20,568 nt of DNA from a virus. Shown here one piece after another: positions 2,802 through 17,117 of this stretch (positions are counted from its first letter, which is position 1; every line of letters starts with the position of its first letter). The notes below the pieces were generated by a model. That model was given only the letters and a program-made list of their open reading frames with translations, did no database searches and was not told the DNA's origin. The stretch lies in the IMG/VR virus record IMGVR_UViG_3300025645_000577, positions 1 to 20,568 of that record; one strand, given 5' to 3'. The position numbers and the translations under genes were made by a program.

Positions 2802-2826
2802 AAGCCCCTTAACGGGGCTTTTTTTG
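2802..2826 (+). terminator. Strong rho-independent terminator of the small-gene cassette
   Basis: AAGCCCC (2802-2808) pairs with GGGGCTT (2814-2820) around a TTAAC loop and runs into seven T (2819-2825). It separates the cassette from the proposed RNA gene downstream. Confidence 0.9.
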
Positions 2827-2877
2827 TGCCTTATATTTAATTATCTTTTTTTGTAACTGCTTGAAAAATAAAGGTAG

Positions 2878-2885
2878 TAGATTTG
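2878..2885 (+). promoter_or_regulatory. Candidate -7 box upstream of the structured region
   Basis: TAGATTTG matches the Bacteroidota -7 consensus TAnnTTTG, placing a start site near 2890, right where the structure-rich region begins. The -33 element is poor: TTG occurs 24 (2851-2853) or 14 (2861-2863) bases upstream, neither at an ideal spacing. Position and consensus match make it worth noting; confidence is limited. Confidence 0.4.
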
Positions 2886-2889
2886 TGAG

Positions 2890-3370
2890 GTGTAGCCATC
2901 TCTTTTAAGCTACCTTACAGCCCGTCTAAGCCCTTATATCTTCTGCCTAATGGTTGACAGCCTGGCTCAGAGTAAATGCGGTAAATGGACGTAAAATGAG
3001 AGATGCCGCCTCTTATTACCCCTCTTTAATGAATTCAAACCCTTTTGGTAGGGGTGGCCCAAACCCTGTGAATCAGAATCGGTTAGGTGGGTTAGAAAAT
3101 ATATTTGGAAATGGGTTTGTACTTGCGGACAGTAGCAAGCCCTTAAAGGCTTGCCTTTACTAATATACAGAAGGAATGGAGAGATGCACCCCCTATAACC
3201 TTAAATAAATAGATAAATGCTGGTTAAGTTGAATATTACTGGGGTGCTACAAAGGTTATAAAAGAGTCAGTAATGCAATTCTTAAGCAGACTTAGTGTAC
3301 ACGATCCAATAGGTGGTGTGCCTAAAGTTTGGGAACTTATACAGATTTCCTTCTGTTATACTAAGATAAC
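2890..3370 (+). ncRNA. Candidate large structured non-coding RNA (unassigned class)
   Basis: About 480 bases without a credible gene, visibly richer in G and C than the AT-rich flanks. Perfect complementary pairs seen are: GTAGC 2892-2896 with GCTAC 2909-2913; ACCCCT 3018-3023 with AGGGGT 3050-3055; GCAAGCC 3135-3141 with GGCTTGC 3148-3154 (flanked by AGTA/TACT); ACAGAAGGAA 3167-3176 with TTCCTTCTGT 3347-3356; GCACCCC 3186-3192 with GGGGTGC 3241-3247; TATAACCTT 3194-3202 with AAGGTTATA 3252-3260; and AAGTT/AACTT around a TGGG loop near 3325-3338. The fifth and sixth pairs interleave, giving an H-type pseudoknot or a switch, and both lie inside the 10-bp fourth helix. The size and phage setting recall the large phage RNA classes ROOL and GOLLD, but I cannot assign it. 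The plus strand is preferred because of the upstream -7 box and terminator. Ends are approximate. Confidence 0.55.
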
Positions 3371-3451
3371 TATAAAGTACCATTTTTGTTTTATGGTTTA
3401 GCTATTATTTGTTATATTATTTTCTTATGGTTTATGTGTTTACTATAAGGT
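3371..3451. other. AT-rich spacer with a 10-base direct repeat
   Basis: This lies between the structured region and the end of the minus-strand gene. TTATGGTTTA occurs at 3391-3400 and again at 3425-3434, 34 bases apart. No gene or clear terminator for either strand was seen. Confidence 0.5.
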
Positions 3452-3688
3452 TTATCTATAGTTCTTTATTTCATATTCAACTTCTCCCCAAAACTGCAAA
3501 TCACTTAAATCTTTACTTGGTAATTTATTTAATTCTGTCACAACTTCTCTTACGCAAATTAAAGCTGAATTTATTGCAATATCTCTATCAACCTCTATGT
3601 TATGATTTAGATAATGATTATTTGGCTTAAACATTTCCTTTACTAATTCCTCTGCTTTTTCTTTTGGTTTCATAATATCTTTACTCAT
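3452..3688 (-). CDS. Small hypothetical phage protein, 78 residues, minus strand
   Basis: This is the only well-supported minus-strand gene in the window. I chose the ATG at 3688-3686 (protein MSKDIMKPKEKAEELVKEMF) because an A-rich tract (AAAAACA) precedes it; the 14 upstream residues in the same frame look like read-through of the leader. The body, ending near LSDLQFWGEVEYEIKNYR, contains an amphipathic helix with IAINSALICVREVVTEL. It resembles small acidic proteins often seen in Bacteroidota phages, though the function is unknown. It converges on the proposed RNA region and is divergent from the tail module. A separate promoter, and hence separate timing from late genes, is likely. Confidence 0.6.
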   Translation of the reverse strand: MSKDIMKPKEKAEELVKEMFKPNNHYLNHNIEVDRDIAINSALICVREVVTELNKLPSKDLSDLQFWGEVEYEIKNYR

Positions 3689-3743
3689 TGTTTTTATACT
3701 GCAATATACAAAAATTACAGACAAAAACAAAATAGCTATAAAT

Positions 3744-3754
3744 CAGTTATCATA
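3744..3754 (+). promoter_or_regulatory. CAGTTATCATA element upstream of the tail chaperone gene
   Basis: One of three exact copies (also 14973 and 17098), plus a two-mismatch copy at 12975. It ends 15 bases before the ATG at 3770, in the divergent space between the minus-strand gene and the tail module. It may be a late regulatory site; see findings. Confidence 0.45.
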
Positions 3755-3769
3755 CTATATAGAAAATAT

Positions 3770-4486
3770 ATGGCAGTAGTAGAATTAGAAGTAAGCATAC
3801 CACAAGACTTAAGTGCAATTAAGTTGCATCAGTATCAGAAGTATTTATCTGTTGCTAAAGGAGTAGACGAAGGAGACAAGAACAATGAGTTCTTGAATCT
3901 TAAAGCACTTGAGATATTCTGTGGTTTGTCACTAAAAGATAGTTACAACTTACCTGTATCTATGTTTGAGTCAGTTCTTAAACAGCTTAGTGATTGTTTT
4001 GAAGAGAAGACTGACTTGGTGCAGAGATTTAAGATGACTGGTTCTGATGGTGTGACTGCGGAGTTCGGTTTTATACCGAACTTAGACAAGATGACTTTTG
4101 GTGAGTATATTGACTTAGAGTCTTATATTACTGATTGGGATAATATGCACAAGGCTATGGCTGTTATGTATAGACCTATAGTTGCTGGCAAGAAACATCT
4201 ATATGAGATAGAGCCTTATGAAGGCTCAGACAAATGGGCGGATGTAATGAAGGATGCACCCGTAAATGTAGCAATGGGAGCTTTGGTTTTTTTTTATCGT
4301 TTAGGGAGCAAATTGTCAAAATATACGATGAACTCTTTACTGGAGGAGGAAGAGAAGAAGGGGAATACAGCCTTGAAGCAGGCTTTGGAAGAAAATGGGG
4401 TTGGTATCAGTCAATATATGGACTTGCTGGAGGCGATGTCCACAAACTTGAGTCAGTCACCAAGATTCCATTACACACCTGCTTAA
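3770..4486 (+). CDS. Tail assembly chaperone, short (zero-frame) form
   Basis: A 238-residue protein in the position and with the layout of the lambda gpG-type tail assembly chaperones, which coat or recruit the tape measure protein before tube polymerisation. It is helical and acidic, with FGEYIDLESYITDWDN near residues 108-123 and MAVMYRPIVAGKKHLYEIEP after that. The zero frame continues past a T9 run at 4287-4295 (LVFFYRLGSKL) for 63 more residues to FHYTPA. It is the first gene of the tail operon, preceded by the CAGTTATCATA element. The body pattern is like phage proteins that precede the tape measure gene in Bacteroidota phages. The -1 frame product is listed separately. Confidence 0.7.
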   Translation: MAVVELEVSIPQDLSAIKLHQYQKYLSVAKGVDEGDKNNEFLNLKALEIFCGLSLKDSYNLPVSMFESVLKQLSDCFEEKTDLVQRFKMTGSDGVTAEFGFIPNLDKMTFGEYIDLESYITDWDNMHKAMAVMYRPIVAGKKHLYEIEPYEGSDKWADVMKDAPVNVAMGALVFFYRLGSKLSKYTMNSLLEEEEKKGNTALKQALEENGVGISQYMDLLEAMSTNLSQSPRFHYTPA

Positions 4487-4563
4487 TGTGGTTAAGCTTT
4501 GAGAAAGAGAAGAACGACATAGAAGCTAAGATGATAAAACAATCATATAATAAAAATACATAA
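3770..4563 (+). CDS. Tail assembly chaperone, long -1 frameshift form (about 264 residues)
   Basis: This is a composite product. Residues 1-175 are read in the zero frame, then ribosomes slip back one base on the T run (4288-4294) and read about 89 residues to the stop at 4561-4563. The new tail reads LSFREQIVKIYDELFTGGG and continues to WGWYQSIYGLAGGDVHKLES and LHTCLMWLSFEKEKNDIE. The WGWYQSIY...FEKEKNDIE pattern is typical of C-terminal extensions of phage tail chaperones (the GT-type product). The next gene's ATG overlaps this stop as TAATG, so translation reaching 4563 is expected. About 190 bases are coded in two frames. A sequencing error in the T run is the main alternative, but both frames look protein-like. 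Confidence 0.7.
4287..4295 (+). promoter_or_regulatory. Programmed -1 ribosomal frameshift site
   Basis: Nine T in a row after GG. In the zero frame the codons are GTT-TTT-TTT-TAT, so a T-TTT-TTT slippery heptamer lies at 4288-4294 and allows full re-pairing of both tRNAs after a -1 slip. No strong stem follows; only a weak 5-bp ATCGT/ACGAT pair (4296-4300 with 4325-4329) was seen. Confidence 0.7.
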
Positions 4564-16493: not shown

Positions 16494-17021
16494 ATGGCCT
16501 GCGATTTATCATTAGGAAGAATTGAGCCTTGTAAAGATTCAGTAGGTGGTTTAAACGCTATTTACTTTGTAAACTTCGGGGACTTAGGTGCCATCACTTA
16601 TGATGTTACCAATACTGATGTTATTGATGCGATTGCTGGAACTCCAAGTGCATATAAATATGACATTAAAGGAACTTCAACATTCACACAAAACATCCAA
16701 TCAGATAGAGCTACTGGTACTACTGCTTTTGAGCAAGTATTAGAAATTACTCTAAAGAAGCTATCTATAGCTGACCACAACGAGTTAAAATTATTAGCTT
16801 ACGGAAGACCACAAGTTATCGTTGAAGATTACAACGGAAACTACTTCTTAGCTGGATTAGAACACGGAATGGATGTAACTGGAGGTACTATCGTTACTGG
16901 TGGTGCAATGAATGAATTAAGTGGATACACACTTACATTGACAGGAATGGAAAGAGTTCCTGCTAACTTCTTAGGAGATACTCCTACAGCAGTTGGATTT
17001 ACTGTAGTAGCTGGTTCTTAA
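16494..17021 (+). CDS. Probable major tail tube protein, 175 residues
   Basis: Resembles small beta-barrel tail tube proteins of Bacteroidota siphophages. Landmarks are IEPCKDSVGGLNAIYFVNFG (about 10-29), TSTFTQNIQSDRATGTTAFE, LEITLKKLSIADHNELKLLA (about 83-102), and a beta-rich end: VIVEDYNGNYFLAGLEHGMD (about 108-127), then GYTLTLTGMERVP near 144-156. The DYNGNYFLAG and GYTLTLTGME pair is the strongest point. It follows the capsid gene after a terminator and ends just before another terminator, so it can be made at its own high level. Placement next to the capsid gene, away from the tape measure gene, is unusual. A head decoration protein is the alternative. Confidence 0.65.
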   Translation: MACDLSLGRIEPCKDSVGGLNAIYFVNFGDLGAITYDVTNTDVIDAIAGTPSAYKYDIKGTSTFTQNIQSDRATGTTAFEQVLEITLKKLSIADHNELKLLAYGRPQVIVEDYNGNYFLAGLEHGMDVTGGTIVTGGAMNELSGYTLTLTGMERVPANFLGDTPTAVGFTVVAGS

Positions 17022-17045
17022 ACACAGTACTCTTAAACACAGAAG
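17017..17045 (+). repeat. Two copies of the CTTAAACA(T/C)AGTAC repeat family
   Basis: CTTAAACACAGTAC at 17017-17030 and CTTAAACACAGAAG at 17032-17045, 15 bases apart. They differ from the cluster at 273-451 mainly by C for T in the core. The first copy contains the tail tube gene's TAA stop (17019-17021), and both copies lie just before a terminator. Confidence 0.8.
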
Positions 17046-17073: not shown

Positions 17074-17097
17074 ATTTAAAACAAAAAACATACTTTT

Positions 17098-17117
17098 CAG
17101 TTATCATATTATGATAA
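17098..17117 (+). promoter_or_regulatory. CAGTTATCATA element and 17-bp palindrome over a start codon
   Basis: An exact element copy at 17098-17108. TTATCATA (17101-17108) and TATGATAA (17110-17117) form a perfect inverted repeat around a single T, and the ATG of the gene at 17111 lies inside the right arm. A binding site or a hairpin that hides the start codon are both possible. Confidence 0.5.

Follow-up and report, generated by a model that had tools for sequence, protein, structure and literature searches.

The locus

The DNA that we analysed (hereafter the window, meaning the whole stretch) is 20,568 nt long and corresponds to positions 1-20,568 of the IMG/VR virus record IMGVR_UViG_3300025645_000577, a phage of marine/freshwater origin. 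An initial annotation had pointed to a gap of about 480 bases (2890-3370) without any convincing gene, and had placed a strong terminator to its left, at 2802-2826. In the ORF listing of the window there is indeed no credible gene at about 2827-3358, and the terminator was confirmed. On the other side the region is followed by a small gene and by the tail operon.

2802-2820, plus strand: Rho-independent terminator of the upstream plus-strand operon, where the RNA region may end on the left
3452-3730, minus strand: small gene (phrog_21441) that separates the RNA from the tail operon

In two related loci (L094 and L029) zinc-finger and HNH-like ORFs were seen by eye in place of phrog_21441, and these replacement ORFs had no Pfam nuclease match. 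With respect to coding potential, no frame stays open across the homologues of the region, which are set apart from each other by indels and insertions.

The region had also been described as richer in G and C than its flanks. This holds for the nearer flanks (0.27-0.29, against 0.35-0.38 in the region), but GC contents as high occur in several coding parts of the window (e.g. 0.41 at 4001-4500). Likewise, its many complementary segments had been taken as a sign of structure. We discarded minimum-energy folding as evidence on both strands, since the fold energy was no better than that of dinucleotide shuffles (z of 0.03 for the plus strand and -0.88 for the minus strand); complementarity within the single sequence is therefore uninformative, and the evidence for structure is supplied by the homologues.

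Homologues and distribution

Relatives of the tail gene downstream of the region are encoded on at least 236 viral-contig stretches. Of the 82 loci examined at that stage, about 32 matched an iterated profile of the intergenic region, and a pattern built on the right-hand end of the region, used to scan IMG/VR, matched at least 119 stretches. With the iterated profile the element is present in at least 140 viral loci, corresponding to at least 43 clusters at about 93% identity. At E below 0.01 there was one copy per record in 19 of 20 records; in the twentieth (that of L012, whose locus is of the type of L010 and L011) the element was not detected at this threshold.

In 84,980 species genomes the strict pattern gave zero matches. 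A looser pattern gave 31, and we read the best 6 of them according to the covariance model; the three for which genes had been mapped were all inside coding sequence. On these best 6 of 31 matches the RNA family appears to be limited to viruses, the species-genome matches being apparently due to chance and, where mapped, located in coding sequence. Among the phage isolates of INPHARED no homologue was detected, either for the window region or for a short-form probe. The nearest cultured phages by major capsid protein are the Nonlabens phages P12024S/L (35% identity), for which reason the host is probably a bacterium of the Flavobacteriia; the model of the 5′ domain described below had no match in P12024S at E up to 5.

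The 5′ domain

The element occurs in a long form, as in the window, and in a short form, which consists of the helices E, D and F only and is found elsewhere in related phages.

3301-3357, minus strand: 5′ domain (pseudoknot E/D, hairpin F, then UUGGAUC), common to the long and the short forms
3353-3356, minus strand: 5′ strand of helix E (ACAG), partner 3341-3344; 99.4% of cells paired, two-sided changes in 2 of 4 pairs
3341-3344, minus strand: 3′ strand of helix E, from the same alignment
3347-3350, minus strand: 5′ strand of helix D (GGAA), partner 3332-3335, crossing E; 100% of cells paired, two-sided changes in 3 of 4 pairs
3332-3335, minus strand: 3′ strand of helix D, from the same alignment
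3321-3324, minus strand: 5′ strand of hairpin F, partner 3310-3313; two-sided changes in 4 of 4 pairs, 18 strand combinations
3310-3313, minus strand: 3′ strand of hairpin F, from the same alignment

Read on the minus strand, the order of the domain is E1-NN-D1-AU-E2-...-D2-YAMACUU-F1-...-F2-UUGG. The covariance model R1 scores 3301-3357 at 64.1 bits, the window itself being among its 39 training sequences. In 39 distinct sequences, E, D and F taken together are paired in 98.7% of cells (74.1 when shuffled) and have two-sided changes in 9 of 12 pairs; their covariation score is 0.689 against 0.204 shuffled and was reached by 0 of 500 shuffles, and, since relatedness alone can lift related sequences above such shuffles, it has to be read beside slid controls, which retain relatedness and yet fall to 0.05-0.11.

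From this comparison, E and D form an H-type pseudoknot that is kept by compensatory changes. In the closest relatives, for instance, helix D changes from GGAA/TTCC to GAAG/CTTC with its pairing intact. The same relatives decide about a 10-bp long-range helix (3167-3176 with 3347-3356) that had been proposed at first: it is perfect in the window only, and in six close relatives the arm 3347-3356 reads CTTCAACTGT and only 5-8 of the 10 pairs are left. We therefore rejected this helix, because these relatives break it and keep D paired; judging from the alignment, the arm belongs to the local helices D and E. A bulged hairpin proposed at 3131-3161 was not borne out either, given that around 3135-3154 it is kept in close relatives only and without covariation.

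The core of crossing helices

Downstream of the 5′ domain on the minus strand, the long form has a core of three helices.

3269-3274, minus strand: 5′ strand of core helix C (AUUACU), partner 3235-3240; 19 haplotypes
3235-3240, minus strand: 3′ strand of core helix C, adjoining A
3252-3260, minus strand: 5′ strand of core helix B, partner 3194-3202; 17 haplotypes
3194-3202, minus strand: 3′ strand of core helix B, from the same alignment
3241-3247, minus strand: 5′ strand of core helix A (GCACCCC), partner 3186-3192; 14 haplotypes
3186-3192, minus strand: 3′ strand of core helix A, preceded by a conserved G run

Pairing was 96.5% for C against 67.7% shuffled (shuffle maximum 78.1% of 2000), 95.0% against 59.1% for B and 97.6% against 65.5% for A, and each of the three tops all 2000 shuffles in cells paired; the strands were located with anchors and chosen partly by pairing, so that the absolute percentages are inflated, and the value for B, whose strands were picked by best pairing, is optimistic. 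The order of the strands is C B A C′ B′ A′, in which every pair among A, B and C crosses. By this alignment C and A, whose strands adjoin, constitute a second H-type pseudoknot, and B joins its two loops.

Two interleaved helices had been recognised from the single sequence, and these are exactly A and B. Both covary across lineages, so that the alignment of homologous intergenic regions upheld this pair and broke the 10-bp helix. Altogether the comparison gives six helices (E, D, F, A, B and C) that are kept by compensatory changes, two pseudoknots included. It is rare for an RNA to have three helices that all cross one another.

Strand, promoter and start

3362-3389, minus strand: RNA promoter ACAAAA-N12-AGTTATCTTA, with the motif and the 28-nt length of the structural-gene promoters
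3727-3754, plus strand: promoter of the tail operon (gene 3770-4486), of the same class and in the direction opposite to that of the RNA promoter
17081-17108, plus strand: the same motif before the structural gene 17111

The motif ACAAAA-N12-AGTTATCWTA is present in 3 copies in the window, with 0 expected in shuffles, and the minus-strand copy (3389-3362) stops a few bases before helix E. Gene 15015 is preceded by a fourth AGTTATCATA. The facing promoters of the RNA and of the tail operon change in step by lineage, for example both having CGTTATC in L145 and L119 and both having AGTTATC in the window and L027. In short-form phages the place of the RNA promoter is occupied by TATATTTG/A, of the Bacteroidota -7 type. 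Moreover, GIY-YIG ORFs are found within the locus of L008, L010 and L011, at differing positions and always on the minus strand.

From the promoter and the gene evidence we infer, with high confidence, that the RNA is on the minus strand; it most likely starts near 3357 and runs leftwards. The initial annotation, which had assumed the plus strand and a start on the left, was in this respect most likely wrong. The same structured RNA on the plus strand, with D/E at its 3′ end, would be compatible with the paired elements, which are all strand-symmetric, and with the wobble pairs (about 13 haplotype cells with G.U on the minus strand, 9 that would be G.U on the plus strand), a difference that fits either strand. 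There is also a TAnnTTTG box at the left edge (2879-2886), as had been noted, but the window has 34 such boxes and the relatives that we inspected do not conserve this one, whereas the conserved promoter is on the minus strand, at the other end, and the GIY-YIG genes of the locus share its strand. We consider the plus strand unlikely.

The class of the promoter suggests that the candidate RNA is made together with the virion genes, that is at a late time. As a separate observation, two relatives carry a sigma-factor-like ORF (L236 10526-11086 and L232 5284-5838; a weak Sigma70_r2 match, E 0.024, in one, no match in the other) whose product may recognise the AGTTATC promoters, and gp33 of P12024S is annotated with Sigma-70 region 2.

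Gene context of the long and short forms

Downstream of the long form a gene is in view in 21 clusters; in 17 it is antisense and usually 600-1100 nt off, and in the other four, where it is co-directional, it lies at 321-535 nt (in L008 it is a GIY-YIG gene). In complete-looking 35-kb relatives nearly all the genes have one direction and the RNA is opposed to them. The short form has a co-directional gene 145-196 nt downstream in 15 of 18 clusters, usually a 76-78-aa ORF beside a NinG/HNH-like gene and downstream of a holin, and is antisense to both neighbours in L093 and L108. In L152 the RNA sits between terS and terL. Most long forms have no fixed downstream gene and most short forms do have one; the neighbours of the RNA vary between lineages, and in every context seen the locus is intergenic and splits no gene.

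The co-directional genes behind four long-form and most short-form clusters count against a stand-alone RNA and suit a cis-acting 5′ leader. Its pseudoknot and hairpin would act on the genes behind it, through transcript stability, translation or elongation (put-like antitermination), and the location of the 5′ domain where the transcript presumably begins would suit it too. Such a leader seems to us rather improbable, given that nothing co-directional follows most long forms or the short forms of L093 and L108, that the neighbouring genes change between lineages, and that the RNA occurs once per genome, not at every promoter. A trans-acting RNA gene fits better because the neighbours vary, the promoter is fixed and the structural constraint is deep; as for such a gene, we found an own promoter directly upstream and compensatory base-pair changes.

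Short forms are usually followed, on the RNA strand and about 100-120 nt from the RNA start, by a polypyrimidine mirror repeat (L093, L099, L101, L103, L108, L111, L127, L134, L137, L147, L151 and L181). A G run usually precedes it; its arms are 20-24 nt long and its spacer is mostly GTCC, GGCTAC or ACCC. The arms vary by lineage and the mirror symmetry stays, which is what one would expect if a triplex formed, either as H-DNA or as a double U-rich motif in RNA. Weaker mirror repeats are present in L116, L155 and L195, and none was found in the window, G001, G016 and G017.

In other relatives (L010 5583-5990, the equivalents in L011/L012, L038 and L040) the core is replaced at the locus by a different, apparently structured element, for which there was no Rfam match in L010, L011, L038 and L040. 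In L010/L011 the AGTTATC promoter is kept before this element and a GIY-YIG ORF then follows.

The distal part

2987-3037, minus strand: conserved distal module, probably a stem as read by eye, TGAATTCAT...TTTTACGTCC
2897-2935, no strand assigned: TTTAAGCC-like repeats, spaced about 10-12 nt, near the distal end, seen by eye in the window, L068 and L038

The distal module is located at +261 to +360 nt in most long-form loci, and it is also present in the core-less L010/L011. In L018 (5450-5550) and L021 (5460-5580) it occurs twice in tandem (ACGTAAAATG...ATGAATTCA), with about 50 nt per unit. No clear minus-strand terminator was found for the RNA, whose left limit is probably at about 2802-2900. 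Elsewhere between genes, the window has six CTTAAACATAGTA repeats at 274-449 and two CTTAAACACAG at 17018-17042, which may be an operator; boxes that resemble these repeats, ATATTAAACAT, recur in long-form loci (L106, for example), in their distal part.

The TTTAAGCC-like repeats are more likely a DNA site than an RNA structure, and two readings of the locus start from them. In the first, the RNA would serve, like RNA II of ColE1, to prime or open DNA synthesis at these repeats; the proposed transcription is directed towards them, their spacing is close to one helical turn, the G run at A′ is kept, and endonuclease genes enter the locus repeatedly. There is, however, no skew switch at the RNA in the window, the short forms are far away and without repeats, and neither a DnaA box nor an initiator gene is tied to the RNA, which makes a replication-origin transcript quite unlikely. 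In the second, the whole locus would be a DNA site (for packaging, for recombination or as an endonuclease target), with inverted repeats that function at the DNA level. Beyond the distal repeats this could draw on the triplex-type mirror repeat of the short forms and on the preference of homing endonuclease genes for conserved DNA. Since crossing helices cannot all be cruciforms in duplex DNA, and the distance between the promoter and the first helix is constant, we regard it as very unlikely.

Comparison with known RNAs

The Rfam search (4227 families, ROOL, GOLLD and introns among them) covered the window, two trimmed regions and six homologous loci, also with lax filters, and gave only sub-threshold chance matches. 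A literature search, which was short on subscription journals, found no description of the family. The first reading of the gap as a large structured RNA that is neither ROOL nor GOLLD and may be a new class thus agrees with six covarying helices and no Rfam match, and the region very probably represents a new phage RNA family.

ROOL and GOLLD are phage-encoded RNAs of hundreds of nt with several pseudoknots, seen as stand-alone RNAs of unknown function, and the level of GOLLD rises during lysis (PMC12286853). As far as visible, the present family falls within such large structured phage RNAs and resembles this type, apparently as a member of neither: the candidate is likewise phage-encoded, hundreds of nt long, with several pseudoknots and apparently stand-alone, but it has no Rfam match, other helices, an exchangeable short form and GIY-YIG genes that it hosts. 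ROOL is characterised by a site near phage tRNA genes and by an RNA-only nanocage, and the Rfam model of GOLLD by a conserved 3′ region; ARAGORN, run on the window alone, found neither a tRNA nor a tmRNA gene, so that the site near tRNA genes is a difference from ROOL.

The packaging RNA (pRNA) of phi29 is a phage RNA transcribed outside the protein operons, from a promoter of its own. The candidate shares this arrangement; no link in sequence or structure was found, and a link with packaging is positional only (L152). In HK022, put consists of two hairpins that act in cis to the early genes in antitermination. The short form resembles it as a compact structured RNA at the very start of a phage transcript, unlike it in having pseudoknots, a single copy and, for the long form, usually no gene behind.

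Group I introns with GIY-YIG endonucleases share with the locus an endonuclease ORF and, in C/A, a pseudoknot topology like that of P3/P7, and the differing positions of the ORFs in L008, L010 and L011 would suit a known ribozyme, such as a group I intron that has degenerated. Nevertheless, no Rfam intron matched with lax filters (one plastid-intron match, of 11.8 bits, was below threshold), P4-P6 and the conserved group I core sequences are absent, B crosses both other helices, and L010/L011 carry a different element instead of the core. The RNA lies between genes in several contexts, without exons and with no gene or tRNA interrupted, and we rejected this reading as extremely unlikely.

Proposed role

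Our proposal, to which we assign a probability of roughly two in three, is that the minus strand of the region specifies a phage RNA, structured and non-coding, that belongs to a new family, is transcribed from a late-class promoter near 3357 and is most likely stand-alone and trans-acting. Precisely, transcription would begin near 3357, at a promoter of the class of tail and head genes, and would extend leftwards in the direction of 2802-2826, giving an RNA no longer than about 550 nt. This RNA would open with the E/D pseudoknot and hairpin F, followed by the core C B A C′ B′ A′; made alongside the virion proteins, it would act in trans via its own fold or a protein partner. Candidate roles are assembly, packaging or control of late expression, and an action in trans as a structural or ribonucleoprotein RNA in one of these is a tentative reading, near even odds but below them. 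Held with the same reserve is the idea of a new RNA class with a three-helix knot as core, made with the virion genes as an RNA machine, whose 5′ domain would be exchangeable and elsewhere coupled to a triplex-forming mirror repeat.

Large phage RNAs like ROOL and GOLLD are few and unexplained, and the family described here would be an independent one with unusually strong comparative support. Its two forms, the long one and the short one with the mirror repeat, come with an exact promoter and helix map, which makes expression, structure and function directly testable.
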